DNA of 24,409 bases from a virus. Below are positions 1,599-23,119 of the stretch, piece after piece. The notes under the pieces are model-generated. The model made no database searches, had not been told where the DNA came from, and saw only the letters and a program-made list of their open reading frames with translations. The stretch is from positions 1 to 24,409 of IMG/VR virus record IMGVR_UViG_3300027965_000181; one strand, written 5' to 3'. Positions within the stretch are counted from its first letter, which is position 1. Every line of letters begins with the position of its first letter. The position numbers and the translations under genes are program-made.

Positions 1599-2510
1599 TC
1601 ACGGCAGGCCGGCGAGGCTGCCCAGAATGCCGCCGGTGCCGAAGCCCACGGGCAGTCCCAAGCTGTTGGCGAGGCCGAGGCCGCCGATCGCGCCGCCGAC
1701 GATCTGCTGCGCCAGCGGCACGCTTTGCGTGGTGGTGCCCTGGCTCGTGCCCGAGGTCTGGCTGCCGAGCTGTGCGAGCGGCGTGAGCAGTTGTTCGTAA
1801 GGCGCGAGATTGGCAAGCGGCAGGCTGTGCGCGGTGTTTGCGGCCGACAAGGCTGCCTGCTCGGGCGCCGTCAACAGGCCGGGTATTTGCCCGGCGAGGT
1901 TGGCGCCCGAGAGCTGGTTGCTCAGACCCGTCTGCTGCAGATTGGTCAAGCCGCTCGCGGTGGTGTTGCCGGCGCCGAACAAAGCATTGGCGGCGGAGAT
2001 CTGATTATTGACGTTGCTGTTGTACTGGGCGGCGAGCGCAGGGGCTTCGCCCTGCACGAGGCCGTAGGCGAGCGCCTGGGTGTTGCCGGGCGAAAGGTCC
2101 CGCCCGGCGGCCGCGAACTGATCGTTGATCTGGTTGGTGATGTTCTGGCCAAGCGTGCCCATTGCCTGGGAGAAGCCGGGCGTCGTATAGGGATTGAGAC
2201 TGGCCGGATTGGACAAAGGCGACAGCGTGCTCTGCAGATTGTGTTAGGCGCCGGAGAGAACGTTGCCGTAATTTGCGCCCCCGCCCGAAAGCAGCGTATT
2301 CGCGGTGTTGGCGATCTGGCCGCCGAAGCCAGGCAGGTTTGCGGCCGTGCTCTGCAGCGCCGAGGCGGCGGCGGATTGCTGCGGCGTCACGGCAGTGTTG
2401 TAGTTGTTGAGATTTCCCAACAGGCTCTTGAGCTGCGGCTGCGTGGCCGCCCAGGGAGCCGTCTGCGATTGCTGGCTTGTGCTTTGCGTGGTCGTGGTTT
2501 GACCGCCCAT
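1599..2510 (-). pseudogene. Conserved phage tail/virion protein split by an in-frame TAA
   Basis: Two fragments, 2510-2244 (88 residues) and 2216-1599 (205 residues), lie in the same frame, separated only by a TAA at 2246-2244 and a few codons. Reading through the stop gives LLSGGGANYGNVLSGA, stop, HNLQSTLSPLSNPASLNPY, which is a natural continuation. The protein starts MGGQTTTTQSTSQQSQTAPW and is low in charge and rich in Asn, Gln, Gly and Ala, with PGFSQAMGTLGQNITNQIND and an 'AAGRDLSPGNTQALAYGLVQG' helix. I recall this pattern from conserved proteins near the tail end of rhizobial podophage operons. The start at 2510 has an excellent Shine-Dalgarno (AAAGGTG). The stop could come from a Tyr codon (TAC to TAA). 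A downstream restart at the Met at 2216 is possible but would lose about 100 residues. Confidence 0.75.
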
Positions 2511-5349: not shown

Positions 5350-5958
5350 TCAAGGCGTCGGGCCCATGATGCGAACCGCGCCGGCCCCGCGGCTCTTGTT
5401 GGAGAGGCGCTCGATCTCATCGAACAATTCGTCGCGGCGAGACTTCCACAGCGCAGCTGCATCGGGGTTGACCGTGTAGGCCTCCGCCTCCGCGAGCGAG
5501 CCAAACAGATAAAGATCGGGATGCTGGCTCATCAGCCAATTGGTCGAGTTGGCGGCGAGCGAAGGAATTTGCTGGAAGTAAACGAGCTCGAGCGCGGTAT
5601 CAGTGGGATCAAGCGGCATTGTCAGGATATTGCCGCCCTCGATGGTGAAGACGCGCGGAGTGTCGGTCGGCAGATCAGGATACGCGGCCTGCAGCCAGGA
5701 GGGCTCGACGAAGGCGAGCTCCTGGCGCGGATTGCCGGTCCAGGTGAGCCGCCGCCAAGCGAGATAGTCCGCCGGCAGCACCACCACGCCGTTTGCGGGC
5801 GTGAGCTCCACGGTCGCCTCCTGCTGCCGCACCCGCAGGCGCCGGTTCGCGCACGCCTCGAACAGCTGCACGAAGCTCGGGGTGACGGCGGCAAGGTCCT
5901 GGCGCTGCAGCCAGTTGCCGATCGCGGTGGTGAGGTCGGTGTAGGTTGCGAGAGTCAT
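5350..5958 (-). CDS. Head-to-tail adaptor protein, SU10 adaptor-like
   Basis: This encodes 202 residues starting MTLATYTDLTTAIGNWLQR. The N-terminal helical part contains FVQLFEACANRRLRVRQQEA. It is followed by a beta region (VVVLPADYLAWRRLTWTG, FTIEGGNILTMPL, LELVYFQQIPSL) and C-terminal helices (DLYLFGSLAEAEAYTVNPDA, RRDELFDEIERLS). This order, including the 'LP.DYL..R.......PR..L' beta segment and the 'P.LYLFGSL.EA' helix, is typical of adaptor proteins that bind the portal and dock the nozzle in SU10-like podophages. It precedes the nozzle gene. Confidence 0.85.
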   Translation of the reverse strand: MTLATYTDLTTAIGNWLQRQDLAAVTPSFVQLFEACANRRLRVRQQEATVELTPANGVVVLPADYLAWRRLTWTGNPRQELAFVEPSWLQAAYPDLPTDTPRVFTIEGGNILTMPLDPTDTALELVYFQQIPSLAANSTNWLMSQHPDLYLFGSLAEAEAYTVNPDAAALWKSRRDELFDEIERLSNKSRGAGAVRIMGPTP

Positions 5959-7096: not shown

Positions 7097-7468
7097 TCAG
7101 CCCTCGCGAATGACGACAGTGAATTGCGCCGGGACCGACGCGCCGCTCGCGCCCGACGGCGTGAAGGTGATGACGTCGCCTTCGTTGAGCTGCGCGCTGC
7201 CGCCCGAATTGGTTGGCAGATCGCTGGCCGCGATGCCGCCGGAGCCGGCGGAAATCGCCAGCGCGCCGGTGCCGATATCGGCGCCGCCGTTGATGCCGAC
7301 GGCGATCGCCATCGTCCCGGTGGTGGCGCCGTTGGCGACCGCATAGGTGCGCACGACACGGCCTTTCACCGGCGCAACACAATTGGCGGCGGCCGGCGCA
7401 GTGCCGGCGCTCGGCGTATACGCATCGACCGTCCATTCATTGACCGGCCGGACATTGGGGAGAGTCAT
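7097..7468 (-). CDS. Small virion structural protein, possible head decoration
   Basis: This encodes 123 residues. The start chosen is the ATG at 7468 (MTLPNVRPVNEWTVDAY), with AAGGA about 9 bases upstream. The longer frame to 7600 is a repeat translation. The protein is an all-beta, Ala/Gly-rich sequence: VKGRVVRTYAVANGATTGTM, AIAVGINGGADIGTGALAIS, LNEGDVITFTPSGASGASVP and AQFTVVIREG. It looks like a compact beta-sandwich similar to decoration proteins placed downstream of capsid genes. It is the first of four tightly packed small structural genes. Confidence 0.7.
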   Translation of the reverse strand: MTLPNVRPVNEWTVDAYTPSAGTAPAAANCVAPVKGRVVRTYAVANGATTGTMAIAVGINGGADIGTGALAISAGSGGIAASDLPTNSGGSAQLNEGDVITFTPSGASGASVPAQFTVVIREG

Positions 7469-7527
7469 GTTTGGGGATCCTTGTGAAAAGGAGATTGGTG
7501 GAAGTGGGCGCGGCAGACGTGGTGCGC

Positions 7528-7627
7528 TCCCTACCCCCTTGTGGGGGAGGGTTGGGAGGGGGGTTGTTGTTTGACGGACCCAAGCCCGTACCACCCCCAC
7601 CCCCCGACTTCGGATTGGGGAGGGGAG
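7528..7627. repeat. C/G-tract inverted repeat element
   Basis: The hairpin ctacccccttgtgggggagg is followed by gttgggaggggggttg and, after a spacer, by cacccccacccccc...ggattggggagggga. It belongs to a different family from the gcgaaagc repeats but likewise lies in a gap between phage genes (7469-7671). Confidence 0.7.
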
Positions 7628-7671
7628 CAGGCCGAAGTCTGCCGCCCGTTCACGCGATTCAAATGCGTGGA

Positions 7672-8706
7672 TCAGAAATCGGCGCTGGCGATGACGTAGC
7701 CCGAGCCGCCGCCGCCCTGCAGCGTCGCGGCAAGGCCGACCGTCTCGGTCAAGGTCGAGACCAGGCTGATGGCATTGGGCGTGTGCGTGGAGCCGGCGGC
7801 AAGACCGGTCGCCGCGGCAGCGGCAGCGGCCGCCGCCACCTTGAAGCTGCCGGCGCTGACCGACACGCTCGGCGCCTTGTAGAGCTGCACCGGTGTCGCA
7901 AGATAGAATACCTGATTATTGGCGGAGGCGACCGCTCCGCCGACGCCGACGATGACGCCGGCTCCCGGCTCGGGTATCACCCAGGCATAGCGCTGGCAGA
8001 TCTCGAGCTCGACCTGCACGTCGCGATGCTCGTAGGGCGAGGCGAGATTGCCGATCTCGAGCTGGAAGCCGTTGAGAATGATGCCGTCGGCGGCGCCGGC
8101 GGTTCCGCTCGGCGTCCACGACAACAGCACGCCGAGCTGCGTCGCAGTCGAAGGCACCAGCCCGCTGAACTGGTAGCGCGTCATCGTGCCGGTCAATGTC
8201 TGCGTTGTGTTGATGATGTTCGCCTGGCCGGTCCACGTGCCCGCCACCAGGCTCGCGGCAGATTGATTCAAGCCGGTGCCGGCGACGAGCTGCACGGTGA
8301 GCGGCCCCCCCGAATAATTCGCCGCCGCGCGCGCCCAGAACGAGAAGGTGAGCTCCTGCCCCTGACAGCGGACGCAATCGGCCGATTCCAGCACCTGCCC
8401 GAGGCTCAGCGCGGCGGTGTTGGCGTTGCCGCTCGAACGCGTCATCTGCAGCGACTGATTGAAGCCGGCAATCGAAGCATCGGCGATGACCGACGCCAGG
8501 ATAGAGGAGGACGCGCCGCCGACCATGAACCAGCGATCGGCGAAATAGGTGGGCGTGCTGGTGATGGGAGTTGTGATGGTCCCGGCGCTGGCAAGCCCCG
8601 GGATGTTGCGCTGAAACGGATTGGTGGTCATGTCGCCACCATCCAGGAGATTGATGAAATTGTGGGGCGTGTTGATGAGCTGCCCCTCGATGGTGTAGTG
8701 GCCCAT
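7672..8706 (-). CDS. Tail fibre / virion appendage protein with C-terminal CQRY motif
   Basis: This encodes 344 residues from the ATG at 8706 (MGHYTIEGQLINTPHNFINL), chosen because AAAGGA lies about 9 bases upstream. Residues 50-215 form a jelly-roll-like carbohydrate-binding-type domain: DRWFMVGGASSSILASVIA, LTFSFWARAAANYSGGPLTV and LGVLLSWTPSGTAGAADGII. It is followed by FQLEIGNLASPYEHRD.....ELEICQRY, the signature seen in many phage tail-fibre and adsorption proteins (family usually 'LE.G..ATPFE.R....ELALCQRYY'). An Ala-run (KVAAAAAAAAATGLAAG) and a beta tail follow. It lies between the capsid gene and the small structural genes, and is probably involved in host-surface contact. Confidence 0.75.
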   Translation of the reverse strand: MGHYTIEGQLINTPHNFINLLDGGDMTTNPFQRNIPGLASAGTITTPITSTPTYFADRWFMVGGASSSILASVIADASIAGFNQSLQMTRSSGNANTAALSLGQVLESADCVRCQGQELTFSFWARAAANYSGGPLTVQLVAGTGLNQSAASLVAGTWTGQANIINTTQTLTGTMTRYQFSGLVPSTATQLGVLLSWTPSGTAGAADGIILNGFQLEIGNLASPYEHRDVQVELEICQRYAWVIPEPGAGVIVGVGGAVASANNQVFYLATPVQLYKAPSVSVSAGSFKVAAAAAAAAATGLAAGSTHTPNAISLVSTLTETVGLAATLQGGGGSGYVIASADF

Positions 8707-8850: not shown

Positions 8851-9807
8851 TTACGCCGTGGTGTTGTCGAACACGCCGCCTGATGCCTTCTCGTTGCGGG
8901 CGACCAGCGCATACTCGGAGAGGATTTCCTTCCAATCGGAATCGCCGGTCTTGGCGAGCGGGAAGGAGACGAAGCGGCGACCGTTGAGATAGGCGACCGC
9001 CCACATGTCCATCTGCAGCGCCAGCACGTCGCGCGGGCGCATGAAGCGGTTGGGCGCAAGGCGCAGCGTGCCGAAGTCTGATTCGTACGCGTCGACCGCG
9101 GCGGTGATCTTCTTCGCCTTGGTGTCTTCGGTCGGCGTGGCGCGACCCGTGAAAGTCGAGAACACCTGCTTGTTGAAGCCGCCGGTCATGATGATGTCGG
9201 GCTTGCCGCCGGAGTTCCAGATCGACTGCAGGACGCTCTTGAGGTTTGCTTCCGTGAACAGGCGCTGGGTGCCGTCGGTGCGGGTATTGGTGCCGAGCGC
9301 GGCGGCCGGGTCGGCGCCGCCCGCGCCTTTCGAGGTATTGGTCTTGATCCAGGACAGCACGGAAGCGGTGGTGCGGGCAGTCGAATCATTGCCGGCGGTC
9401 TTGGCCTGGTTGGTGCCAACCAGGATCGCCTCCATGTCGCGCTTGAGCTCCAGGCCCTTGAGCATTTCCTGATACGCCATCTCGTCATCGCGCCCGGCGT
9501 GCTCGACCGCGCGCTGGGTGCCGGTGACCTGGGGCACCTTGCGGGAGATCTGGCAGATATTGCCGAGCCGCACCGTGGCGGTGGTCTGATCGGCGATCGC
9601 CGCATCGCCTTCGAGCTGAGCGTTGGCGGTGTTTACCGCGGCGAGCGCCTGCGTCTGCCACTCATGCAGCACGGCGGTCGCCTTCTCCTTCTCGATGCCG
9701 CTCATGAACGGCGTCTCGGTCGGATCGATGCGATAGATCACGTCGGACAGATCCTCGCGATTGCCGACGGCTTCGTAGGTCGCGAAGGTGTTGGTGGGGA
9801 GTGCCAT
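8851..9807 (-). CDS. Major capsid protein, SU10-type (DUF5309 family)
   Basis: This encodes 318 residues starting MALPTNTFATYEAVGNREDL. Characteristic blocks of the HK97-fold capsid family formerly called DUF5309 are visible in order: DVIYRIDPTETPFMSGIEKE (N-arm), HEWQTQALAAVNTANAQLEG, RLGNICQISRKVPQVTGTQ, GLELKRDMEAILVGTNQAKT, SVLQSIWNSGGKPDIIMTGG, FNKQVFSTFTGRAT, VDAYESDFGTLRLAPNRFM and SEYALVARNEKASGGVFD. Full length for the family, with no visible lesion. It follows the scaffold gene as expected. This is the best identified phage gene in the window and places the prophage with SU10-like podoviruses. Confidence 0.95.
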   Translation of the reverse strand: MALPTNTFATYEAVGNREDLSDVIYRIDPTETPFMSGIEKEKATAVLHEWQTQALAAVNTANAQLEGDAAIADQTTATVRLGNICQISRKVPQVTGTQRAVEHAGRDDEMAYQEMLKGLELKRDMEAILVGTNQAKTAGNDSTARTTASVLSWIKTNTSKGAGGADPAAALGTNTRTDGTQRLFTEANLKSVLQSIWNSGGKPDIIMTGGFNKQVFSTFTGRATPTEDTKAKKITAAVDAYESDFGTLRLAPNRFMRPRDVLALQMDMWAVAYLNGRRFVSFPLAKTGDSDWKEILSEYALVARNEKASGGVFDNTTA

Positions 9808-10095: not shown

Positions 10096-11199
10096 CTACC
10101 GCGCAGCCTTCCGCCGCTCGGCCAACAGGCGCGCGGCATCCTTGATGTTGCCGCTCGCTTCCAGACGCCGCGTAAGGTTCTGCACGACCGCCTCGTGCGC
10201 GGCGCCGCGCGGCTGCGCCGCGCCCGGCCGCTGCACCGGCGGCACCGGCTTGGCGCTCGCCTGCCTGGCGGCTCTCTGGGCGTCGCGAAAGCGTACGCCG
10301 TCGCGGATCAGCATCTGCACGCGGTGATCGTGCAGATTGAGCTCGCGGCGGCCGTGAAAGAAATCACCGAGCTCGGCATCGGAGAAACCGAGCTCGCGCA
10401 GCATGTGCCCCGCCGCCTCCGTGAGCTTGGCGCGCTTGACCGGATCGGCGAGGTCGGGATTCTTCTCGATCAAGCGTGCCTGCTCGCGCTGGACCAGATC
10501 CTGGAAACGCAGGTGGCGCTCCTGGCTTTGCCGCACCGAAGAGTCCTGCAGTTGCTGCTGCAGCTGGCCGATCCGCTTCTGCTGCGCATCCCACGCTACA
10601 TAACGCGGCCAGTCCTCGCGCGCGAGCCGCTCGACATCGGTCACCGTCTTGACATCGGCGAAATCGGCGGCGTGCTGCTGCTGCAGGGTGGCGAGCAGCG
10701 TCGGCAAAGCGTTCTCGTAGGTGACCCGGGCCTGCTCCGCTTTCGTCCGCTCGGCTTCGAGCGCCTGGCGTTGCTGGGCCGCTTCGCTTTCGCTGCGGTG
10801 CAGCTCGGCCTCGCGTTCCGCTTCCCGCGCGGCGAAAAAGCTCTGCGTCTCGCGCGGCAGAGATTTGAAGCGCTCGCGCGCGGCCTCGTCCCAGGATTTC
10901 GGCGGCTCGATCGGCGTCTCCGCGACCGGCGTCTCGGCTTGCTCGGTTGGGGCGGCCTGTGGGTCGTCCGATGCCGGTGCAGGCTCCGCCTCTGCGGCTG
11001 CGGTTTGATCCACCGGCTTTGCGGCCGCCTCCGCGGTTGCTTCGGCCTTTGCGTCTGCGCTTTCACGCGCCTTCACGCGAAAGCTCGCGACCGAACGCGC
11101 TGCATCGCGCGCCGAGATATCGTCGCCGCTGGGCGCAGGAATTTGCACAATGTCGAGAGTTGCGCCGCTTTCAACAGCGGCGTCCGTAGAGATGTCCAT
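10096..11199 (-). CDS. Capsid scaffolding protein
   Basis: This encodes 367 residues, with the start at 11199 supported by AAAGGA about 8 bases upstream. Residues 1-110 are acidic and Ala/Pro/Glu-rich (ESADAKAEATAEAAAKPVDQ). Residues 120-240 form a long charged, Gln-rich helix or coiled coil (FFAAREAEREAELHRSESEA, IGQLQQQLQDSSVRQSQERH). The C-terminal third is basic (ALIEKNPDLADP-like region, LGFSDAELGDFFHGRRELNL, MLIRDGVRFRDAQRAAR). An acidic disordered N-terminus, coiled-coil middle and basic helical C-terminus immediately upstream of the major capsid gene is the standard scaffold arrangement. Confidence 0.85.
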   Translation of the reverse strand: MDISTDAAVESGATLDIVQIPAPSGDDISARDAARSVASFRVKARESADAKAEATAEAAAKPVDQTAAAEAEPAPASDDPQAAPTEQAETPVAETPIEPPKSWDEAARERFKSLPRETQSFFAAREAEREAELHRSESEAAQQRQALEAERTKAEQARVTYENALPTLLATLQQQHAADFADVKTVTDVERLAREDWPRYVAWDAQQKRIGQLQQQLQDSSVRQSQERHLRFQDLVQREQARLIEKNPDLADPVKRAKLTEAAGHMLRELGFSDAELGDFFHGRRELNLHDHRVQMLIRDGVRFRDAQRAARQASAKPVPPVQRPGAAQPRGAAHEAVVQNLTRRLEASGNIKDAARLLAERRKAAR

Positions 11200-11708: not shown

Positions 11709-12064
11709 GACAGCGCCCTTTTCAGCCATTCGGTGAGCCACGGATTGTCGCGGAATACCTGCGTCCAGCCGGTCGCAAATGCGCCGACGATGCGCTCCTC
11801 CTTGTCGTCGTCGGCAAGCGCATAGGTCGCATAGATCGCATGTCCGGCCTCGTGCAGGAGAGTGTCGGCGGCCTTGACGGCGGATGGCATGTCGAGCTGC
11901 AGCGCTACGTGTCCCTCGCTCGGTGAGAACTCGCCGAAGCAGTCCTTGCCCATGGCGCGCTGTGCGGACAATTTGTCGATGCGGAAGTCGTACGGTCCGA
12001 CTCGCAGCGAGGCCGGCAGCGCCTCGATCGCCTGCCGACCGGTCTTGAAGATGGGCTTGTTCAT
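11705..12064 (-). CDS. HEAGH zinc-metallopeptidase-like phage protein
   Basis: This encodes 119 residues. Residues 66-78 read ADTLLHEAGHAIY, a canonical HExxH zinc-binding motif (H71, E72, H75) within a helix. The likely third ligand could be Asp or Glu near residues 84-90 (ADDDKEERIVGAF). The N-terminus (FKTGRQAIEALPASLRVGPY, DFRIDKLSAQRAMGKDCFGE, FSPSEGHVALQLDM) resembles short phage and prophage peptidases of the ImmA/SprT-like type. It may process a virion or host protein. No substrate can be inferred. It is translationally coupled to the next gene and lies inside the structural operon. Confidence 0.75.
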   Translation of the reverse strand: MNKPIFKTGRQAIEALPASLRVGPYDFRIDKLSAQRAMGKDCFGEFSPSEGHVALQLDMPSAVKAADTLLHEAGHAIYATYALADDDKEERIVGAFATGWTQVFRDNPWLTEWLKRALS

Positions 12065-12104
12065 GGGGCGAGCCTTTTCTGATGTTGACTTGTGCCGGGC
12101 ACTC

Positions 12105-12993
12105 TCACGCGGCCAGCAGCAGCGCGAGCGCGTCTTCCTCGTCCTTTGCTTCGATCTGTGCCTGCGCGGCGGCGGCGGCGAGCCGCGATGCGTGACTCAT
12201 CGCATGTTGCAGGCGCATTCCATGCGCGGCCGCCGCCAACGCGGATTCGAGCGTACGCTCGCCGGCAGTCGTCGCGCTCACTGCATCAAGGCGCGCGCGC
12301 TCGGCCGACCGGGCGGGCCTCCTCGGCGGATGCAGCCGCCTGCAGGCGTTCGCGCGCAAGCCGTCTCGCCTCCTGCCGGCGGCGCCGAGCCGTCTCCCGC
12401 TCGGCGGCAAGCTCGTCCTGCAGCTCCCGCCAGCGGCCACGGCTGAACGTGCCGGCGACGATCGTGCCGCCGCCGCCGGCGATGTCGTAGCTGAGATAAG
12501 CGCCAGATCCTGTCAGCGAGAAGCTGCCGGTCTCAAGCGGCTCGTCCGTCGTGGGGCTCGCGATCGGCTCGCCGGTCAGCGTGTAGGCGCCGAATGGGGC
12601 GGCGAAAAAGCCTTCGAACTTGGCGGCTTCGCCCGTCTCCGCAAACGATCCGAATGCGCCGGCGAGCTGCTGCTGCAGTCCTGCGGTTTCGCCCGTCAGC
12701 GTGAACGATCCGAACGCCGAAACCAAGAAGCCTTCGAATGCCGCCGCGAATCCGGTCTCCGCAAATGCGCCGAAGGCGGCGACCTGCTGCGTCTGGAAAA
12801 GAGCAGCCTCGCCGGTCAGTGCAAACGAGCCGAAGGCGGCGACCTCTTGCGTCTGGAAGAGAGCCGCTTCGCCCGTGAGCGCGAACGATCCGGATGATGC
12901 GATCAGCGTAATCGTGGTCGTCGACGGCTGCGAGAGCGCGCGCGGACGCAGCCGCGGCCGCCCATAGCCGCCGACCTTGAGGATCTTGACCAT
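12105..12993 (-). pseudogene. 20-residue-repeat phage protein with a frameshift in a GC-dinucleotide tract
   Basis: From the ATG at 12993, residues 35-154 are six tandem 20-residue repeats of the form GSFALTGEAALFQTQEVAAF, followed by a degenerate seventh (GSFSLTGSGA). A charged helix follows (WRELQDELAAERETARRRRQ) up to AAASAEEARP. This frame stops at 12286. A neighbouring frame continues the same coiled-coil character down to 12105 (AERARLDAVSATTAGERT, ESALAAAAHGMRLQHAMSH, AQIEAKDEEDALALLLAA). Total length is 889 bases, one more than a multiple of three. Adding one CG unit to the GCGCGCGC tract near 12293-12300 joins the frames perfectly. The repeat resembles 'GAFALTGQ' repeats of phage surface proteins. 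It could be two ORFs, a variable site or decay. Confidence 0.75.
12532..12891 (-). repeat. Six tandem 60-bp coding repeats
   Basis: The protein has Gly at residues 35, 55, 75, 95, 115 and 135, an exact 20-residue period. Each unit starts GSF(A/T)(L/E)TGE. The first two units are nearly identical at DNA level (cgaaggcggcgacctcttgc / cgaaggcggcgacctgctgc), implying recent duplication or gene conversion. The later units are more diverged. Confidence 0.85.
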
Positions 12994-14485: not shown

Positions 14486-14905
14486 TTACTGCAGCTCGAG
14501 GATGCCGTTGACGGCGTCGGGCTGGACCTGGAACGAGTTGCCCGAGGTCACATTGACCTCGGCTCCGTAATCCCACCAGCCGATCAGGTTGCCGCTCGCC
14601 GCCGTCGAGTTGTAGATGACCGCATAGCGGAACTGCGCAATCGACCCGCCCGAGGCCGTGAAGGTCACGTTGTTGCCCATGAGCTTGTAGAGACCGCTCG
14701 TCTGGCTCGAGCTCGTGATCGTGACTGCCGTGCCGCCGGCCGTATAGCCGTTGCCCGCGGCGATCTCGGTGATATTCGCCTTGACGGTGTTGCTCGCGCT
14801 CGGCGCCGTGTCGGTCAGCATGATCTTGAGCGTGTCGGAGCCCAGATTGTGCACCTTGTTGGCGATGTCGGCGACGAACTGATTGAACTTATTGAACGAG
14901 GCCAT
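14486..14905 (-). CDS. Small conserved phage virion protein
   Basis: This encodes 139 residues from the ATG at 14905 (MASFNKFNQFVADIANKVHN). A second ATG sits directly upstream at 14908, but GGAG is better spaced for 14905. The gene overlaps the 3' end of the portal gene by 17 bases. The protein contains a helical start with NLGSDTLKIMLTDTAPSASN, then a beta domain (NITEIAAGNGYTAGGTAVT, YKLMGNNVTFTASGGSIAQF, RYAVIYNSTAASGNLIGWWD) ending SFQVQPDAVNGILEL. This 'F..DLA...H.L.SDTLK..LT' protein is common beside portal or capsid genes of many phages and appears to be a virion component, perhaps surface-exposed. Confidence 0.8.
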   Translation of the reverse strand: MASFNKFNQFVADIANKVHNLGSDTLKIMLTDTAPSASNTVKANITEIAAGNGYTAGGTAVTITSSSQTSGLYKLMGNNVTFTASGGSIAQFRYAVIYNSTAASGNLIGWWDYGAEVNVTSGNSFQVQPDAVNGILELQ

Positions 14906-17306
14906 CATTGACTCCGTTTGGTGCTGAGAACGGCGCTGGCGACGGCGGCACCGGCATGGGCGACACCGGCGCAAGCGGGATCGGCTCGACATGGCTAACG
15001 CGGCCTTGCGCATCGCGGACCACGCGCTTGGGCGCATTCATCTGCCGCAGCATGTCCATCAGCGTGGCGACGAGAGCCGCGGCACCGGGATTGCCGGGCG
15101 TGGGTCCATCCTGGCCCGCACCGCCGGCCGTGGCTCCCACTGCGGCCTGCAGATGGCGGAACTGTTGATCGCGCAGCGCGAGCTCGTGCTGCAGCAACGC
15201 CATCTGCCGGTCGAGCTCGAAGCGCTGCTGCGCCAGCGCGGCATCGCGCTGCGCCTTGCGCTCCTGCAAAGCGAGCTGCCCCTGCGCCTGCTGGGCGTCG
15301 AGCTGCGCTTGCGTCTGGATTTGCATGAGCTTCGGATCGGGCTGAGGTTGCGGCGGGGCTTGCGTCTTCGGATCGGTGAAGAATTGATCGACCGTCTTGA
15401 GATCAACGAGCTTCACCACCTCGGCGGCGGAATTGTAGAGATTCTGCACGCTGACCAGATTGGTGAGCCCGCCGGCCAGAGCTTCCTTCTGCAGGTTGAT
15501 CACCGCCATCACATGGGCGAGCCGCTCCGACTTGCCGCCGGTGCCCAAGCCCACATTGATGGTGAGATCATTGCGCTGCTTCCAGTCGCGCGGATCGACC
15601 GTGACCCATTGATTGCGCAGCCGCACCGTCGCTGCTTCCGCTCCGTGCTTGCGGATCGTGGCGTGCAGAAGCGAGAACAGGTCGCGGATGCCGGTTTCGG
15701 CAAAGATGCGCGCGATCAGCTTCATGCGCGCTTGCGCGGCGTTGTAGACCTGCACGGCGGCGGTCGCTGACGTATTCTGCAGCGCATTGGCATCGAGCCC
15801 CTGCGCCTGCCGGTTGACGCCGGTGCGCCACTCGCGGGTCGCATCCGCGTATTCGAGCACCGGGAAAATCTCGCCGGCTATCGCCGGCACCGTCTGCCAG
15901 TTCACGCCGCCCGGCATCTTGGTGCGGACGATGCCGCCCGGCCGCGAGACCAACAGATCATCGAGCGTGGTCTCGGTCGCGTGCGCTTCCGACACTTCGA
16001 CCCGCGGATTGACCGCCAGATAGGCGTTGTCGAGGATCGAGCGGATGAGCGCCGTCTTGATGCGCTGAATGTCCATCACCAAGTCGGCAATGGAGCGGCC
16101 GAAAAAGCGGTGACTTACGATCACCGGCGTCATGGCGGCGAATGGCACCATGTCGACCTGCACGATCTCGAGCTCGCCGTCGCGCTTGAGCACCTCGCCC
16201 TGGTCGCCGCCGGTGGTCACCCGGTAGAGCGCGGGCTTGTTGTTGCCCTCGTAATCCATGCGCACATAGTGCTCGGTGATCTTGATCTGGCGATTGACCT
16301 CGTTGAGGCCCTCATCGCCGCCGGCGACGAGATGTTCATCCACCGTGTCGCGCGCCAATTCCTCCGGATTGGTGAGCATCGCGTAGGTCGGGATTGCTTT
16401 GACCTGCGTGCGGTCGTAGCCGGCCGCGATCAAGTCCTCCTCGCGTTTGATCACCTCGTGGAAGCAATAGCCGCAGTCCTTGAGGCTTCTGGCAAATCGC
16501 GAAATGCCGAACTCCTCGGGCGGCACGCCCTCGACGCGCGCCTGCGCGACGGTCTTGCGGGTAATGACGGTGACGTCGTGCAGCATGGGCACGCGTGAAA
16601 CCTCATCATCCTCAGCATCGTTGCCTGCCGCTACGGCCGGTGCAGCCGCCGGATTTGTTGTGGGTGCGGCCGGCGCGGTTGGCGCACCAACCCCGGCATT
16701 GAACGTTGTTGCGCCGTCGCTCGGCGGCACCGCAGCACCGGCTAGCAGCCCGACGGTTGCTTGAGTGGCCTGATAGGCCGGGTCGGGATGCTGGCTGTGC
16801 CCGACGATCTCGATATTCGGATTGGCGGCAAGGATAGCAAACGCGTCGTCGCTCTGGTCGAGATAGGTCTCGCGGGTCTCCTCCTCGCGCTCCTCCCACC
16901 ATACCTTGACGATGCCGACTTTCGAAAGCAGCGCGTCCTTGATGAAGGAATAGAGAATGAGGAAGCCGGGATTCTGCTGCATGAACACATGGTTCACGTA
17001 GTCGGTTTCCTGCTCGGCAGCCGCCACATCCTCCGGCCCGAACGGCTCGAAGCGCACGACCTCGTCGGAGCCCGCAAAGATCTCCATGAGCGAGGGCATC
17101 AGCCCTTCGATCGTGTCGGCGACATCGGAAGAGACCGCCTGCGAGCGCCCATCCTGCGCCGGCATGTCGGCTGCCATGTCGCCGTTGTAGTAGTCCATGG
17201 CGCGGGTGCGCTCGGCCGAGAGCTTGGACGCGCGCACGGCGGCGAGCGCATCCATCTTCTCCGCCGCAAGCATGGCCTGCAGCTCGGACGGCGACATTTT
17301 TGGCAT
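14889..17306 (-). CDS. Portal protein (head-to-tail connector)
   Basis: This encodes about 805 residues starting MPKMSPSELQAMLAAEKMDA. Recognisable blocks are AMDYYNGDMAADMPAQDGRS, ADTIEGLMPSLMEIFAGSDE, TDYVNHVFMQQNPGFLILYS, FIKDALLSKVGIVKVWWEER, SRFARSLKDCGYCFHEVIKR, FFGRSIADLVMDIQRIKTAL, LDNAYLAVNPRVEVSEAH, LVSRPGGIVRTKMPGGVNW, and in the C-terminal barrel RQAQGLDANALQNTSATAAV. The last 200 residues are a Gln-rich coiled coil (QLDAQQAQGQLALQERKAQR). Length and blocks match portals of SU10/P22-like podophages. The longer start at 17357 is possible but lacks conserved content. Two terminators lie 55-150 bases upstream. No terminase precedes it, which is unusual. Confidence 0.9.
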   Translation of the reverse strand: MPKMSPSELQAMLAAEKMDALAAVRASKLSAERTRAMDYYNGDMAADMPAQDGRSQAVSSDVADTIEGLMPSLMEIFAGSDEVVRFEPFGPEDVAAAEQETDYVNHVFMQQNPGFLILYSFIKDALLSKVGIVKVWWEEREEETRETYLDQSDDAFAILAANPNIEIVGHSQHPDPAYQATQATVGLLAGAAVPPSDGATTFNAGVGAPTAPAAPTTNPAAAPAVAAGNDAEDDEVSRVPMLHDVTVITRKTVAQARVEGVPPEEFGISRFARSLKDCGYCFHEVIKREEDLIAAGYDRTQVKAIPTYAMLTNPEELARDTVDEHLVAGGDEGLNEVNRQIKITEHYVRMDYEGNNKPALYRVTTGGDQGEVLKRDGELEIVQVDMVPFAAMTPVIVSHRFFGRSIADLVMDIQRIKTALIRSILDNAYLAVNPRVEVSEAHATETTLDDLLVSRPGGIVRTKMPGGVNWQTVPAIAGEIFPVLEYADATREWRTGVNRQAQGLDANALQNTSATAAVQVYNAAQARMKLIARIFAETGIRDLFSLLHATIRKHGAEAATVRLRNQWVTVDPRDWKQRNDLTINVGLGTGGKSERLAHVMAVINLQKEALAGGLTNLVSVQNLYNSAAEVVKLVDLKTVDQFFTDPKTQAPPQPQPDPKLMQIQTQAQLDAQQAQGQLALQERKAQRDAALAQQRFELDRQMALLQHELALRDQQFRHLQAAVGATAGGAGQDGPTPGNPGAAALVATLMDMLRQMNAPKRVVRDAQGRVSHVEPIPLAPVSPMPVPPSPAPFSAPNGVNDGLVQ

Positions 17307-17359
17307 GTGGGATGAGCCTTGCGGGCAGGTTTCTTCGGCCGGCGCGCTTCGCGCCAAAC

Positions 17360-17398
17360 AAAAAGCCCGGCGCGGTTTCTCGTCCGCAATCCGGGCTT
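17360..17398 (-). terminator. Rho-independent terminator
   Basis: Read on the minus strand, an AAGCCCGG...CCGGGCTT stem with an inner GCGG/CCGC extension is followed by TTTTTG. It is the second of two tandem terminators in this copy of the boundary repeat. Confidence 0.8.
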
Positions 17399-17424
17399 CA
17401 AACAGGCTTCAGCAAACAGGCAAC

Positions 17425-17457
17425 AAAAAACCGACCTCGAGGCACTCCCGAGATCGG
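17425..17457 (-). terminator. Rho-independent terminator
   Basis: On the minus strand, CCGATCTCGGGAG...CTCGAGGTCGG forms a stem with one G-T pair, followed by TTTTTTG. It is the first terminator encountered by transcripts leaving cassette 2. Confidence 0.8.
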
Positions 17458-17538
17458 CTCACACTTCTCAAGTTTCAATTTCGTGAATAGTCTGATTTGC
17501 GGAACTGTGTCAAGCGCGATGTATCGAATTCGCGAAGA

Positions 17539-17845
17539 TCAGTGCACTTCGAATTCCAGCGCGCCCTTCGGCCAAAGCACGGTATACTTGTCCCCATCCA
17601 TTTTGCGGTACGCCATCCGACATCCTGGGAAACCTGCTGGCGACATCAAAGATTTGACTTCTTCACACAATCTCTCCGGATCATCCGTAGCGATGAAAAT
17701 GTTCGCCTCGTCAGACCCAATATAGTGGCCGTCAACTTTGTGCAACTTGGACAGGGGTGGAGGTGAGCGTGCGCTCCATCTCGATCATGGAATCGTAATC
17801 GCGAATCGAAGAGCCTGGCCATTGCAGGACGAACATGTACTTCAT
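17539..17845 (-). pseudogene. Frameshifted copy of a small immunity-like gene (MKYMF family)
   Basis: The ATG at 17845 begins MKYMFVLQWPGSSIRDYDSM, as in the copy starting at 20815. A GGGG run (GGG in the sister copy) near 17751-17754 shifts the frame. The C-terminal part then continues as VDGHYIGSDEANIFIATDDP ... MAYRKMDGDKYTVLWPKGAL to a stop at 17539. Total length is 307 bases, one more than 306, so the intact gene would encode about 101 residues. An internal Met near 17745 could give a 68-residue product. It resembles short standalone proteins with 'VDGHD.GSGE.NIFI.T.DP' often found near toxin loci. An immunity role is inferred from context only. Confidence 0.75.
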
Positions 17846-17896
17846 CGCGGTGGTCCCTAATAGTGGCGGCCTGCTACTGCACGATAATGATGTATC

Positions 17897-18179
17897 TCAT
17901 CGACCGAGGAACCTGCTTGCGTCCGACTGCGCACGGCGGGGCAGCGCAGTCAGGCCTTCCGTCTCGCCGATAGTTCCAGTTGCGATTGCATGGAGCTGCT
18001 TCAGGTTAGTCTGCTGTCTGGTCCACTCACGAAGGGATGCGAGCGAATCCTCTCCTCTTCCTTTCGATCAAAGCGAGCGTTGGGATTCTGCGCGCTGACA
18101 AATTCATGAAGAGCATCGTTCGCATGCCTCGCCGCCCGGTACCAACCACGTCCACGACCTGAAGATTATCCAAGCTCAT
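17897..18179 (-). pseudogene. Chimeric immunity remnant: DUF6572 start joined to DUF416 end
   Basis: The ATG at 18179 encodes MSLDNLQVVDVVG, matching the first residues of the DUF6572-like gene at 18967. The sequence then switches, at about 18137-18144, to DNA nearly identical to the 3' half of the DUF416-like gene (20867-21110), ending at the equivalent TGA at 17897. The DUF416 part is out of frame and carries a further 7-base deletion near 18029. No functional product is expected. It is a recombination scar showing that parts of cassette 1-type immunity DNA were once linked here. Confidence 0.8.
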
Positions 18180-18534
18180 GATCCTGGCTTCCTGAGACTC
18201 CTTTCTGCGCGTTCCCGAGCCGAAAGCGCAGCGAGAAGCCGGCATCTTGAATTGTCTTCCGCGCCAAACCAAAAAAACTTTCTGCCTCGCCGCTCAGCGG
18301 ATATTTTTCAACCAGGTTTATGACTACCGGCCGTCCTCTGGCTTCCGGTATATCGCGATACATCTGCCCGCCCTCGATAAAGGCCAAGTAAGTGTTCATT
18401 TTGGCCTGAAGCAGGAGTAAGTGGGCACCCTCGTCCTCGTCCCAGCTGAGGTGATCGCTGATCGTAAGCAGCACGTCTCCGGTTGCATATTCGATGTGCA
18501 CGAAATCGATCTTGTCTGTCTGATCAATCGACAT
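18166..18534 (-). CDS. Second DUF6572-like putative immunity protein
   Basis: This encodes 122 residues starting MSIDQTDKIDFVHIEYATGD. It has VLLTISDHLSWDEDEGAHLL, LLQAKMNTYLAFIEGGQMYR, DIPEARGRPVVINLVEKYPL and a C-terminal helix (SGEAESFFGLARKTIQDAGF). The overall plan (beta hairpin, 'W....EH...LQ.K.N.YL.FIE.GQ.Y', 'R.V.I......') matches the 106-residue gene upstream, with low identity, so it is a diverged paralogue. Its stop overlaps the start of the chimeric remnant by 14 bases. It lies in the trailing array after the cognate immunity gene and is probably an orphan immunity gene. Confidence 0.75.
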   Translation of the reverse strand: MSIDQTDKIDFVHIEYATGDVLLTISDHLSWDEDEGAHLLLLQAKMNTYLAFIEGGQMYRDIPEARGRPVVINLVEKYPLSGEAESFFGLARKTIQDAGFSLRFRLGNAQKGVSGSQDHELG

Positions 18535-18646
18535 CAGAACTCTTCCCCGGTCGGAGGATTTCGACCTGCTTGGGAGGAATTTTCATACCACCTCCGAACC
18601 CTGGCTTGCCAGCGCCGACTACGGTTGCGCGCCACTTCCACTTTAC

Positions 18647-18967
18647 TCAAATTACCTTTTGCGTCAGGGCAATATTGAACTTTGCGACAATAGCGGCTGC
18701 TTCCTTGAGGAACGCGAGTCCCTCCTTCGGCATCGGAAACCGGCTCAGGATATCGATCCGCAATATTCTTCCGCTGGCGTTCGGATAGTCTTCATAGATT
18801 TGGCCAGATCCAACAAACTCCAGATAGGCATTGATCTTCTCCTGGAGAGCGTACAGGTGCTCGTGCGGATCGTGCCAATCCCACGAGTCGAGAATGTTAA
18901 GAACAACGGTCGTCCCGTCCTTTGTCGTACTCGCGGCATCTATGACTCGAATATTGTCCAAGCTCAT
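18647..18967 (-). CDS. DUF6572-like putative immunity protein, partner of the nuclease toxin
   Basis: This encodes 106 residues starting MSLDNIRVIDAASTTKDGTT. It contains VVLNILDSWDWHDPHEHLYA, LQEKINAYLEFVGSGQIYED, YPNASGRILRIDILSRFPMP and AAAIVAKFNIALTQKV. This is the typical sequence of the DUF6572 family, small proteins frequently coded right after toxin C-terminal domains. The start overlaps the stop of the nuclease toxin domain by four bases (ATGA), the usual toxin-immunity coupling. It looks intact. Binding and inhibition of the toxin are inferred, not shown. Confidence 0.85.
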   Translation of the reverse strand: MSLDNIRVIDAASTTKDGTTVVLNILDSWDWHDPHEHLYALQEKINAYLEFVGSGQIYEDYPNASGRILRIDILSRFPMPKEGLAFLKEAAAIVAKFNIALTQKVI

Positions 18968-19266
18968 GGCCCTGATTTCCTGATTATCCTAACAGGCCGC
19001 GGTGGCAACTCTATGCCACCGACGTATGGAGGTTTGCCCTTTCCGACAATCACGCCACCGTACTGTCCGACCTCTGGATAGCCAACAGTTTGATTTGGAC
19101 TAAACGGGGCCGTGTCCGAGGCCTTCATATCGATCACCGTCATGTCCCCGGTGAGCTTGTCCTTTCCTACCGCGTCTGCGCGAACTTTCACACCCGAAGG
19201 CCCGTACGACCTAATCGTAATCTGCGGCTGAGTTTCGTCGAATGTTTTAGGGAGCACGTTTGCCAT
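18964..19266 (-). CDS. C-terminal nuclease-type toxin domain (PD-(D/E)XK-like)
   Basis: This 100-residue frame starts MANVLPKTFDETQPQITIRS and is the open 3' part of the cassette 2 gene. The same frame is open upstream to at least 19500, so this ATG may not be a natural start. Key residues are D31 in VKVRADAVG and D46-x-K48 in MTVIDMKAS, the spacing expected of a restriction-endonuclease-like site. TAPFSPNQTVGYPE, GGVIVGKGKPP and a PP-R-V-I tail follow. This order is typical of polymorphic toxin C-termini in RHS, filamentous haemagglutinin and prophage proteins. Probable substrate is DNA or RNA (inferred). It is followed by its immunity gene with an ATGA overlap. Confidence 0.7.
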   Translation of the reverse strand: MANVLPKTFDETQPQITIRSYGPSGVKVRADAVGKDKLTGDMTVIDMKASDTAPFSPNQTVGYPEVGQYGGVIVGKGKPPYVGGIELPPRPVRIIRKSGP

Positions 19267-19442
19267 TGCTTCAGTTTCCCAAGCGTTGCCGGCCGCGTTG
19301 TTTGCTTTGAGTTGTTCCCTTCGGCGCGCCGCGAGCTGTTCGGCGGGCGTCAGTGCGGTCTCTGCGGCCGGCGGAGCAACGGGCTCCGGACGAGATGTCG
19401 CTTGCTCTTGAGGGAAGTCGCGCCATGCGCTCAGTCCCCCAC

Positions 19443-19823
19443 CTAGAATAGCCCCGCCAAGGCGCGCCCAGGACTCGGCAGCGGTTCGGCGGTCGATGTG
19501 TTGGTTGATGCTTGGGGCGCGAAGGATGATGGGCGCCCGCTGTAGTCCGGAGTTTCCAACAATCCGGGCACGGCCAGGGCGCTCGGAAATCCACCTGTCG
19601 GCGCCGCAGTGGTCTGGCTGGGTGGCGGGCCGAGGTCTCTGAGCCCCTCGAGAATTCCTGCGTAAGGTGTCTGGCCTGGCTGCGTCCCGAGGTACCTCAG
19701 CGACTCAAGAATCCCGCCACGCGGAATATCTGGCCCAGGCAACTGAGGCGGCGGCCGCCCTCCATACGGATCGCCGAACTTGAAGCCCGGCGCATTCGGA
19801 AAGATGGGCGGAGCCCAAGCCAA
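19443..19823 (-). CDS. Fragment of cassette 2 delivery region (WAPP-FPNAP segment)
   Basis: This open frame from a TTG at 19823 reads AWAPPIFPNAPGFKFGDPYG, then GRPPPQLPGPDIPRGGILES, LRYLGTQPGQTPYAGILEGL and RDLGPPPS, ending RALAGLF. It is nearly identical to the corresponding piece of cassette 1. The frame is closed upstream by the one-base deletion and downstream by a frame change, so it is a middle fragment of the broken cassette 2 gene rather than an independent protein. No good ribosome binding site precedes the TTG. Confidence 0.5.
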   Translation of the reverse strand: MAWAPPIFPNAPGFKFGDPYGGRPPPQLPGPDIPRGGILESLRYLGTQPGQTPYAGILEGLRDLGPPPSQTTAAPTGGFPSALAVPGLLETPDYSGRPSSFAPQASTNTSTAEPLPSPGRALAGLF

Positions 19824-20097
19824 GGGGCCGACCGCGCTCGCCGGGATTTGGGACCAATAAGCAGTGAACGGTCGGGCGGCGGTGGGCCAACAGGTGCGGC
19901 GGCGCTCGCGTTAGTTTGTCCGCCGAGTGATACGCTTCCTGGATTCGGATTTGTCTGCGGGGCTCCGGCGATCCAATCGTCGGGAAGGCTATCGTCGCTT
20001 CCCAGATCGATCCAATCATCCGGATCATCGGTGCCGTCCGCGAGCTTGCCGAGCACGGTCCATTGATTGACCATTGCTGCACCGCTGAGGCTGAAAT

Positions 20098-20130
20098 GAA
20101 AAAGGGCCCCGTTGGGGGCCCTTGGTTTTT
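20098..20130 (-). terminator. Rho-independent terminator just upstream of the cassette 2 start codon
   Basis: GGGCCCC-CAAC-GGGGCCC followed by TTTTTC on the minus strand; the other strand also ends in a T-run (ggtttttttt-like), so it may act both ways. It lies about 25 bases before the ATG at 20074. Identical placement occurs in cassette 1 at 22961. Confidence 0.85.
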
Positions 20131-20253
20131 TTCGCTCGCATGAATACGCGCCGGAATTGCCGGCAGAACCGGCTGACTGCTGTCAGGCGCGTTTCATGGC
20201 GGATTGGCGATTAGGCAATGGAAGGCATGGCGCTGGCCGTAGCCTCCACGCAC

Positions 20254-20410
20254 GCAAAGGCCCAGCGCGGTTTTCATTCCGCAGACCGGGCTCGGGCAGG
20301 TTTCAACGATCAAGCAACAAAACCGACCTCAAGGTGCTCCCGAGATCGGCTCACACTTCGCGAGTTTCAATTTCGTCAATAGTCTGATTTGTGGAATCGT
20401 GTCAAGCGCA
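20254..20410 (-). repeat. Cassette-boundary repeat, copy 2
   Basis: This is similar to 17359-17518 and 23119-23274, ending in the same gtgtcaagcgc. Here the distal hairpin is degraded (20257-20292: GCCCGG facing CTGGGC with only three T). The proximal hairpin is intact. Confidence 0.85.
20316..20349 (-). terminator. Rho-independent terminator
   Basis: Minus-strand stem CCGATCTCGGGAG...CTTGAGGTCGG followed by TTTTG. It ends transcription leaving cassette 1. Confidence 0.7.
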
Positions 20411-20424
20411 ATGCCGCGACCAAC

Positions 20425-20565
20425 TCAAATTACCTTTTGCGTTGCCGCAACATTAAGTTGCGCCATAATCGCTGCCGCCTCCTTGGGGAATGCAATCCCC
20501 TCTGTCGGCATCGGAAACCGGCTCAGGATATCGATCCGCAATTCTTCCACTGGGGTTCGGGTAAT
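20425..20565 (-). pseudogene. Remnant of a DUF6572-like immunity gene (3' end only)
   Basis: In frame it reads ELRIDILSRFPMPTEGIAFP, KEAAAIMAQLNVAATQKVI and a TGA at 20425, matching the last 45 residues of the gene at 18647-18967. The 5' part is missing. The remnant is joined at about 20565-20575 to the 5' part of the MKYMF gene. A clear recombination scar. Confidence 0.85.
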
Positions 20566-20815
20566 CACCCATTTTGCGGTACGCCATCCGACATCCTGAC
20601 AATCCTGCGGGCGACATCAAAGATTTGACCTCTTCACACAATCTCTCCGGATCACCCGTAGCGATGAAAATGTTCGCCTCATCAGACCCAATATCGTGGC
20701 CGTCAACTTTGTGCCGCTTGGACAGGGTGGAGGTGAGCGTGCGCTCCTTCTCGATCATGGAATCGTAATCGCGAATCGAAGAGCCCGGCCATTGCAGGAC
20801 GAACATGTACTTCAT
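20453..20815 (-). CDS. Hybrid ORF: MKYMF-family immunity-like protein with a replaced C-terminus
   Basis: This encodes 120 residues from the ATG at 20815. Residues 1-80 are an intact version of the family also present at 17539-17845: MKYMFVLQWPGSSIRDYDSM, VDGHDIGSDEANIFIATGDP, CEEVKSLMSPAGLSGCRMAY. After AYRKMG the sequence enters the DUF6572 remnant in the wrong frame (NPSGRIADRYPEPV...), so the natural ending (GDKYTVLWPKGALEFEV in the sister copy) is lost. It could still be expressed as a fusion. It lies 52 bases after the DUF416-like gene and appears to be an orphan immunity gene. Confidence 0.65.
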   Translation of the reverse strand: MKYMFVLQWPGSSIRDYDSMIEKERTLTSTLSKRHKVDGHDIGSDEANIFIATGDPERLCEEVKSLMSPAGLSGCRMAYRKMGDYPNPSGRIADRYPEPVSDADRGDCIPQGGGSDYGAT

Positions 20816-20866
20816 TGCGTTCGTACCTAATAGTGGCGGCCTGCCACTGCACGATAATGATGCATC

Positions 20867-21481
20867 TCATCGACCGAGGAACTTGCTTGCGTCCGACTGA
20901 GCACGGCGGCGCAGTGCAGCCAAGCCTTCGGCCTCGCCGATAGTTCCGGTCGCGATTTCATGAAGTTGCCTCAGGTCAACCTGCTGCCTGATCCACTCCG
21001 CTTTTACAAGGGGATGCGAGCGAATCCTCTCCTCTTCCTTTCGATCAAAGCGAGCGTCGGGCTTCTGCGCGCTCACAAATTCATGAAGAGCATCGTTCGC
21101 ATGCCTCGCCGCCCAGATCGCGGACTGAATATCGGATTTCAGTAATGTTTCGATCGCATAGACGGCCGAGCTCACAGCATCTTCCGCGTAATACGCGAGT
21201 CCGTCGAAGTAGTCATCCTCTTCGGGTAGCAAGCTCATGCAGGCGTCGAGCCGCTCCCGCAGTTCACCAACCGCCGCGCGGCGCGACTCGAGACCGGCCC
21301 AAAGGCAACTCAGCGCGCGAACAAGGATTTGCGAATTGCCTTTGTGAGCTACCTTTGAGTAAGGAGCATAGTTTTCAACTTGCCTTTGCGCACATGCGGC
21401 CGCGAAAGCCGTTCGTAGTCGATTGGGCAGTGGCTGGAGTTGCCGCAGCAACTCCTTCTCGTCGTAGTGCGGGGTCGGCAT
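20867..21481 (-). CDS. DUF416/YjaG-like putative immunity protein, partner of the deaminase-like toxin
   Basis: This encodes 204 residues from the ATG at 21481 (MPTPHYDEKELLRQLQPLPN), preferred because GAGGTG stands 5 bases upstream. It is almost entirely helical: RLRTAFAAACAQRQVENYAP, LVRALSCLWAGLESRRAAVG, EDAVSSAVYAIETLLKSDIQ, AIWAARHANDALHEFVSAQK and HPLVKAEWIRQQVDLRQL. This follows the plan of the DUF416/YjaG family ('FA.AC.ER..PNY..F......G......L...W', acidic 'PEEDD' block here MSLLPEEDDYFDG, 'A..A..A....L'), a family often found after toxin domains. It begins 3 bases after the toxin stop at 21484. It appears intact while the toxin gene is broken. Confidence 0.8.
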   Translation of the reverse strand: MPTPHYDEKELLRQLQPLPNRLRTAFAAACAQRQVENYAPYSKVAHKGNSQILVRALSCLWAGLESRRAAVGELRERLDACMSLLPEEDDYFDGLAYYAEDAVSSAVYAIETLLKSDIQSAIWAARHANDALHEFVSAQKPDARFDRKEEERIRSHPLVKAEWIRQQVDLRQLHEIATGTIGEAEGLAALRRRAQSDASKFLGR

Positions 21482-21483
21482 GC

Positions 21484-21849
21484 TCACCTCAGAGGAGGAA
21501 ATATGGCGGTGGTCTTGCTGGTCAGGACTCCATTTCGAGATTCTATAGCATCTCGGCAACTCCGGCAGATCGGCCGTGTCGTTGCGAGCGCTCTAGGCGT
21601 CAGACCGGCGTTATCCGCTTCGTTGAGAGCCGTGATTTCTCCGTGCGCGCCCGGCAGTTTACCTGCTTGCTCGTCGGATCGTAAGATCGATATCTGCTCG
21701 GGAGTTAAGTCCCGCTTGCCCCCAGCTATGATCGTAGGCCCGTCAGTGCTGAGCGCCACGGTCGTCCGCAGTTTTTTTGGAATCCAGCTTAGCGCGCCAT
21801 GAATTTGATTCGCCCTCTCCGACAAGGCGGCCAATTCCCCTTGGACCAA
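21484..21849 (-). CDS. C-terminal toxin domain, zinc-dependent deaminase-like
   Basis: The open frame encodes 121 residues from a TTG at 21849, which is probably not a natural start but the toxin part of the longer broken gene. It contains IHGALSWIPKKLRTTVALST, GPTIIAGGKRDLTPEQ, then GAHGEITALNEADNAGLTPR and ALATTRPICRSCRDAIES. H69-x-E71 and C95-x-x-C98 match the H(A/C)E...CxxC zinc site of the cytidine-deaminase fold, here with Gly in the middle (HGE). The 'GAH.E..AL..A...GLTPRALATTRPIC..C..AIE' block is familiar from polymorphic toxins. Substrate (nucleic acid or nucleotide) is unknown. The DUF416-like gene follows after 3 bases. Confidence 0.7.
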   Translation of the reverse strand: MVQGELAALSERANQIHGALSWIPKKLRTTVALSTDGPTIIAGGKRDLTPEQISILRSDEQAGKLPGAHGEITALNEADNAGLTPRALATTRPICRSCRDAIESRNGVLTSKTTAIFPPLR

Positions 21850-22729
21850 GAAATTTTAATGCGTTCGCGGGAGGAGCCAGGAACGCAGCGACCGTACGCG
21901 CCCAGGGCTCTGCCGCCGTGCCCTTGGTGAGCTGGCCTGCTGTTTCAGCAGACAACGCGGGTACAAGCCCGTGGCGCAGTGCCCTCGCCGCGAATGATCC
22001 TTCTGGTACGAGCATCGCACCCGGCAGAAATTCGCCGACGGTCTGGGCGTAATCTCCGGGAACTGTCTTGGGTTGGTAGAACGGACCGGTGAACGACTCG
22101 ACTGCGTCCTGGATCTGCGCAGAGGTCGGTCCGGCGAGAAGTGGATTCCAGGCTAGGGCCAGTTGGTTTGTAGCCAAAAAGTCGGAGGCCTTGGCCCCGA
22201 TATTCGGAGCCAAGCCGGGAGCCAGATAATCCGCCGCCTTCTGCACTTCGGTGCCGATGGCTTCGCGTAAGTCGCCCCCCAACCCGAGGAGATGGATCAC
22301 GCCACGGCCGGTCCCGATGCCGAAGGACTTGGCCACGTCGCCGGCGATCTCACCTGTCGAGTAATCCGCCAGCGGCCTGCGCGCATCTGAGGCCGCGGTC
22401 GGCGTGCTTGTTGATGCTTGAGGACCGAAGAATGCTTGGGGCCAGACGTAGTCGAAAGTCTCCGACAATCCGGGCACGGCCGACGCGCTCGGGATTCCAC
22501 CATTCGGCGCGGCGAAAGCTTCGGCGGGTGGCCGGCCGAGGTCTCTCAGTCCCTCGAGTATTCCGGCGTACGGCGTCTGCCCCGGTTGCCTGCCCAGATA
22601 TCTGAGCGACTCGAGGATCCCGCCGCGCGGAATGTTTGGCCCGGGCAGCTGAGGCGGCGGCCGCCCTCCATAGGGATCGCCGAACTTGAAGCCCGGCGCG
22701 TTCGGAAAGACGGGCGGGGCCCAAGCCAA
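21743..22729 (-). CDS. Delivery region of cassette 1 toxin protein
   Basis: This is 328 residues if begun at the TTG at 22729, though the frame is really a continuation of the leader interrupted by the TGA at 22760. Residues 1-115 are Pro/Gly-rich (FPNAPGFKFGDPYGGRPPP, then GILESLRYLGRQPGQTPYAG repeated as GILEGLRDLGRPP). Residues 125-290 form the conserved block: SFGIGTGRGVIHLLGLGGDL, QIQDAVESFTGPFYQPKTVP, GDYAQTVGEFLPGAMLVPEG, ALSAETAGQLTKGTAAEPWA. I recall similar 'TGP.Y.P.T..G.YA.T.GEF.P.A' blocks in Rhizobiales prophage virion proteins. The last 30 residues are frameshifted nonsense (DSKKTADDRGAQH). Confidence 0.7.
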   Translation of the reverse strand: MAWAPPVFPNAPGFKFGDPYGGRPPPQLPGPNIPRGGILESLRYLGRQPGQTPYAGILEGLRDLGRPPAEAFAAPNGGIPSASAVPGLSETFDYVWPQAFFGPQASTSTPTAASDARRPLADYSTGEIAGDVAKSFGIGTGRGVIHLLGLGGDLREAIGTEVQKAADYLAPGLAPNIGAKASDFLATNQLALAWNPLLAGPTSAQIQDAVESFTGPFYQPKTVPGDYAQTVGEFLPGAMLVPEGSFAARALRHGLVPALSAETAGQLTKGTAAEPWARTVAAFLAPPANALKFLGPRGIGRLVGEGESNSWRAKLDSKKTADDRGAQH

Positions 22730-22759
22730 GGCACCGACCGCGCTCGCCGGGATGCGCGA

Positions 22760-22936: not shown

Positions 22937-22960
22937 CGGTGCACCGCTGAGGCTAAAATG

Positions 22961-22985
22961 AAAAAGGGCCCCGTTGGGGGCCCTT
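22961..22985 (-). terminator. Rho-independent terminator just upstream of the cassette 1 start codon
   Basis: Minus strand GGGCCCC-CAAC-GGGGCCC plus TTTTTC. It sits 25 bases before the ATG at 22936, in the same place as the cassette 2 copy at 20098. Confidence 0.85.
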
Positions 22986-23119
22986 GGTTTGCTTGCTCGG
23001 ATGATGACGGCCCGGCATTCGCCGGCGGAAATCAGCTATGGGGTGTCAGATCGGTTTCATGGCTTTGTGTTGGTTGACGAATGCAAGAGGCCGGCACGAC
23101 TTTACGTTTGCGTCCATGC

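Follow-up and report, generated by a model that had tools for sequence, protein, structure and literature searches.

Comparison with relatives points to a broken reading frame in a repeat-protein gene of an SU10-like podovirus record

The repeat protein and its gene block

In the IMG/VR record analysed here (the window, i.e., the whole stretch of 24,409 bp), a gene for a protein with 20-residue repeats runs into an early stop, another frame downstream encodes what could be the rest of its tail, and a run of GC dinucleotides adjoins the junction. The locus thus raises the questions of whether one ancestral gene has been broken here, where the responsible base lies, and whether the break is a mutation, a sequence error, or a way of varying the protein. 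The morphogenesis genes of the window are of the SU10-like podovirus type, with an SU10-type portal, MCP, and adaptor within one gene block (Table 1), and the repeat-protein gene is placed between portal and scaffold. Its position in this block suggests that the product is a virion or morphogenesis protein of an SU10-like podovirus, presumably with a structural role.

Table 1. Positions of the features discussed (window coordinates unless a locus is named)
Feature	Position	Strand	Remarks
Ejection-protein-like gene	1599..2510	minus	phrog_4287; lesion distinct from the frame break (in-frame TAA, 2244-2246)
Adaptor	5350-5958	minus	SU10_adaptor match (PF24175)
MCP	8851-9807	minus	SU10_MCP match (PF17236)
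Scaffold	10096-11199	minus	SU10-like morphogenesis block
Rest of helical tail, +1 frame	12105..12302	minus	Homologous to relatives' C-termini; ends ...DEEDALALLLAA + stop
Repeat protein as read, 235 aa	12286..12993	minus	Seven 20-residue repeats, FSRGRW motif, first half of helical tail; early TGA at 12286-12288
GC run blamed in the earlier note	12291..12300	minus	Gap-free in alignment with L082, so not the indel site by that comparison
Stretch holding the frame crossing	12303..12321	minus	19 nt in window vs 18 nt in L082 between shared anchors
Portal	14889-17357	minus	SU10_portal match (PF23899); fused form
Family member in L082	L082:4089-4961
Split portal loci	L120:4371-6583, L119:2284-4667		And 18 further loci

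The repeats of the window protein (for example GSFALTGEAALFQTQEVAAF) correspond to period-60 DNA repeats at 12760-12892, and the protein had no match in Pfam or PHROGs at E ≤ 0.01. From the sequences of its relatives, an intact family can be defined by the 20-residue repeats, an FSRxRW motif, a helix of ~100 residues, and an acidic-hydrophobic C-terminal peptide. In the proposed architecture, the repeat array is N-terminal and each repeat forms two strands. An AlphaFold2 model of the intact protein of the closest relative (L082), built from an alignment of 18 rows to which the truncated protein of the window contributed one, has low confidence as a whole (mean pLDDT 66.5, pTM 0.35); it has strands at residues 22-155, paired in repeats with low to moderate confidence, a long helix spanning residues 179-277, with a block pLDDT of 91-97 across 181-270, and a second, short one at 281-290. 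Foldseek searches with this model found nothing at E ≤ 0.001 among solved structures (best 0.59) and nothing significant in BFVD, where the best rows were uncharacterised or unnamed phage proteins (best 0.012, an uncharacterised phage protein).

Upstream of the portal, the window region 17383-23275 contains direct repeats of 76-300 nt, mostly spaced near 2.9 kb. It also has two DUF6572 genes, a DUF416 gene, and a gene present in two copies that begin MAWAPPxFPNAPGFKFGDPYGG, with an ORF in another frame overlapping the longer copy. We regard it as a candidate modular effector-immunity region. In the L082 contig (also fetched as L121), at L121:6123-6563 and 7234-8043, a similar repeat stands beside the portal, and the ORF after it resembles, by eye, a periplasmic binding protein, as if phage DNA meets host DNA there.

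Relatives and the reading frame

As queries, the window protein had zero matches in viral_contigs and in phage records, and the intact L082 protein had zero in phage records. Relatives were fetched via the MCP, via a neighbouring gene, and then via an alignment of the first intact homologues. In genome_contigs, the scan with the homologue alignment confirmed nothing, and that with the MCP yielded one Bradyrhizobium frederickii locus. L082, at 51% protein identity to the window protein, is the closest relative and the one close relative found. A scan of the fetched loci for FSRxRW, an expression that could miss divergent relatives, gave 27 distinct motif-bearing reading frames, after merging of loci with identical first 60 residues from the motif on the same or different contigs. 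Stop-terminated frames numbered 22, with L087, L096, L100, L101, and L109 left out as running off their contigs; repeat proteins whose C-terminus differs (L044, L046, L064, L067, and L068) and L031, cut by its contig, were not counted. Eight of the 22 had been fetched without use of the repeat protein, either by the MCP (L011, L012, L015, L030, L052, L059, and L066) or by the neighbouring gene (L082).

All 22 stop-terminated relatives cross the place in one frame. After the motif they run on for 116-143 residues, compared with 56 residues in the window, and none ends at the window's stop. Because the relatives run on in this way and the window's +1 frame, down to the stop at 12105, encodes a matching tail, one ancestral frame is, on this comparison of sequences, broken in the window gene: the net indel is not a multiple of three and the homologous remainder lies in another frame. 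The earlier note had proposed both that the repeat protein is split by a frame break and that the helical tail downstream belongs to the same protein, and both proposals agree with the relatives; the pattern that would have spoken against them, orthologues with the same stop followed by a separate downstream gene, was not found among the 22.

An acidic-hydrophobic C-terminus like DEDEAIALLL was recognised by eye in 21 of the 22 relatives, with L117 doubtful, and a loose pattern matches all of them. This conservation bears on whether the short form might be functional, with the tail half lost and the repeat domain kept for the phage's use. The repeat domain and FSRxRW motif are indeed intact in the window, but at least 21 of the 22 have the C-terminal peptide and the lost tail has no sign of old neglect, so that this reading is very improbable. 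L100 was considered as a second broken copy and rejected, as no forward frame there carries the tail by eye; it seems to enter unrelated sequence at the contig end.

Position of the extra base and the GC run

In a MAFFT alignment with L082, the GC run is gapless and in register with the downstream frame, and a 1-nt gap lies just upstream of it on the coding strand; the other gaps are one of 6 nt near the C-terminus and edge gaps at the ends of the L082 fragment. Blastn likewise places one extra window base within 12303-12321, splitting the C-terminal 6-nt difference into 3, 4, and 1 at 12168-12180 and adding gaps in the intergenic 12064-12087 and two of 3 nt upstream at 12493-12506. Scores against L082 for a crossing from frame 0 to +1 reach 316 inside 12303-12321, compared with 285-290 for a two-base and at most 295 for a one-base reading inside the GC run. 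Since a profile of 21 tails, L082 included, discriminates poorly (69-76 bits across the positions listed, with the highest values upstream of 12321), the placement is taken from L082 alone, and that alignment puts the frame change down to a single additional base in the window, somewhere in 12303-12321.

The earlier note had attributed the break exactly to the loss of one CG unit, and the comparison does not confirm this. Arithmetically, changing two bases of the GC run would repair the frame, but L082 has the run in register and the extra base lies at 12303-12321. The tract itself is present where it had been seen, with ten bases (five GC units) and not the 8 quoted. The note had also pointed to dinucleotide tracts as slippage sites and to the protein as a plausible phase-variable target; in such a reading slippage would toggle the full-length tail. 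In line with this, a five-unit GC run adjoins the break, and one unit gained or lost changes the frame. Against it, the indel lies outside the tandem repeat tract in the L082 alignment, and the tract, which is short, is neither longer nor commoner than composition predicts: one GC run of at least five units was seen in the window against 2.2 +/- 1.3 in 200 first-order Markov simulations, and ten of at least four units against 13.5 +/- 3.6. Moreover, pattern scans of viral_contigs, which may omit very near records, found no variant copy of the locus: the exact DNA pattern across the break site had no copy, and two looser patterns led to four loci (L121-L124), with the gene at the match only on the L082 contig. 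Phase variation is thus hardly credible here, and this part of the earlier proposal is not upheld.

Phages use recoding in some tail genes, and the two frames overlap in the window, as programmed ribosomal frameshifting that joins both frames in translation would need. However, with 22 of 22 relatives using one frame, no conserved recoding is needed; neither the frame overlap nor a signal is conserved in the homologues, and the local RNA fold is no better than shuffles (z = +1.13). We regard this as the least probable of the readings considered. The broader idea that truncated and full-length forms coexist, via indels in the G+C-rich 12291-12321 or via recoding, and thereby vary the C-terminal half of a soil podovirus virion protein, also appears improbable.

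Mutation or sequence error

The comparison with relatives shows that a lesion is present, approximately where it lies, and what it is predicted to remove. A net insertion of one base in the stretch 12303-12321 would shift the frame mid-helix, the crossing mapping to about residues 219-225 of L082, in the middle of the long helix of the model. Translation would then stop about five to eleven codons downstream of the shift, and the product would be without the distal half of the helix and without the conserved C-terminus. On balance we favour, with moderate confidence, a real and recent loss-of-function mutation in a decaying prophage copy, in which the loss of function and the date are presumed and the prophage status of the record is one that we infer from its flanking genes only.

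The favoured reading draws on a second lesion in the same block. The in-frame TAA of the ejection-protein-like gene stands where 29 of 29 relatives' matches across the position have a sense codon (tyrosine in 17); these matches include near-copies, and two carry a stop elsewhere. A decaying copy is favoured because there are two lesions in one block, and the intact genes of the window speak against it: those of the portal, MCP, scaffold, adaptor, and a 571-aa protein are all open and full-length. As to age, no other stop interrupts the +1-frame tail, and its dN/dS against L082 is about 0.48, the value for the 45 codons that precede the break being 0.32; both come from small samples (about 65 codons for the tail). 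This suggests from these sequences that the frame break is young. The search for a terL homologue in the window was negative. The loss of terL was set aside as an argument for prophage decay, given that among portal loci with at least 2.5 kb upstream a terL homologue is present in 8 and absent in 7 besides the window.

The main rival, possible but in our judgement the less probable, is a sequencing or assembly error, in which the metagenome contig carries a spurious additional base and the gene of the phage itself is unbroken. A conserved tail with no other stop and a dN/dS below 1 fits such an error, and contigs of this kind do carry breaks, as in the frame change in the otherwise conserved portal region of L035 or at the contig end of L100. 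On the other hand, an error in this gene leaves the second, substitution-type lesion in another gene of the same record, and a control for breaks, with near-copies included, flagged 0 of 79 MCP, 0 of 56 scaffold, 0 of 69 adaptor, and 0 of 41 571-aa loci. The control also flagged 4 of 17 loci for the gene at 14486-15037, in each case close to the uncertain start of that gene, and 19 of 39 portals, almost always at a single recurring split point. By coordinates and MCP, L067 and L119 represent one stretch, and both enter the counts for the ejection protein, the break control, and the portal classification. The earlier note had allowed for either decay or sequencing error, and both stand as live explanations.

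Split portal genes

The recurrent portal split merits more attention than the break in the repeat protein. In a second classification under other rules, the portal lies in two separate reading frames in 20 of 39 classified relatives and is fused in 19; in the window it is fused, with an Ala/Pro-rich linker at the split point. The N-terminal part has about 190 residues and the C-terminal part about 550, and the first stop overlaps the next ATG as TGATG or TAATG in 13 of the 20 split loci, a layout typical of coupled translation. Inspection by eye covered 17 flagged portal loci, L035 among them, and some but not all of the 20 splits. Flags off this pattern were found in L053, with in-frame stops near the split point, and in L035, where the frame change (L035:2272-3039) is inside a conserved portal region away from the split point and is probably a contig error or a lesion.

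The two-part arrangement was tested in two loci. In Bradyrhizobium phage ppBeUSDA76-2, the parts match SU10_portal positions 2-163 and 172-593, the first annotated as a hypothetical protein and the second under no listed feature, and the B. frederickii locus gives the same two-part SU10_portal picture. Split loci cluster on an MCP tree (40 rows), with eight as the fewest changes and at least three forced by well-supported branches. Within the portions of the open-licence literature returned by our search, there was no report of a split SU10-type portal, the topics being a split DNA polymerase, an SPP1 gene, and a tail spike (PMC10580990, PMC9607348, PMC6027278).

Comparison with known systems

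The window case is an ordinary frameshift lesion or sequence error, and its kind is already known; a literature search on prophage frameshifts and sequencing errors returned nothing. It carries little weight in itself, and its use lies in annotation: the repeat protein is to be read as truncated, and the GC run is not to be listed as a phase-variation candidate. With SU10-like podovirus morphogenesis modules the window shares a portal, MCP, and adaptor matching PF23899, PF17236, and PF24175, and it differs in the repeat protein that lacks a Pfam or PHROGs match. Phase-variable contingency loci are similar in that a gene with repeats has a dinucleotide run close to where its frame is broken, whereas here the run is short, occurs at chance frequency, is in register in L082, and has the indel outside it. 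Frameshift pseudogenes in decaying prophages share the one-base indel in one structural gene and the nonsense codon in another, next to several intact neighbours, and the difference is that prophage status here is one that we infer.
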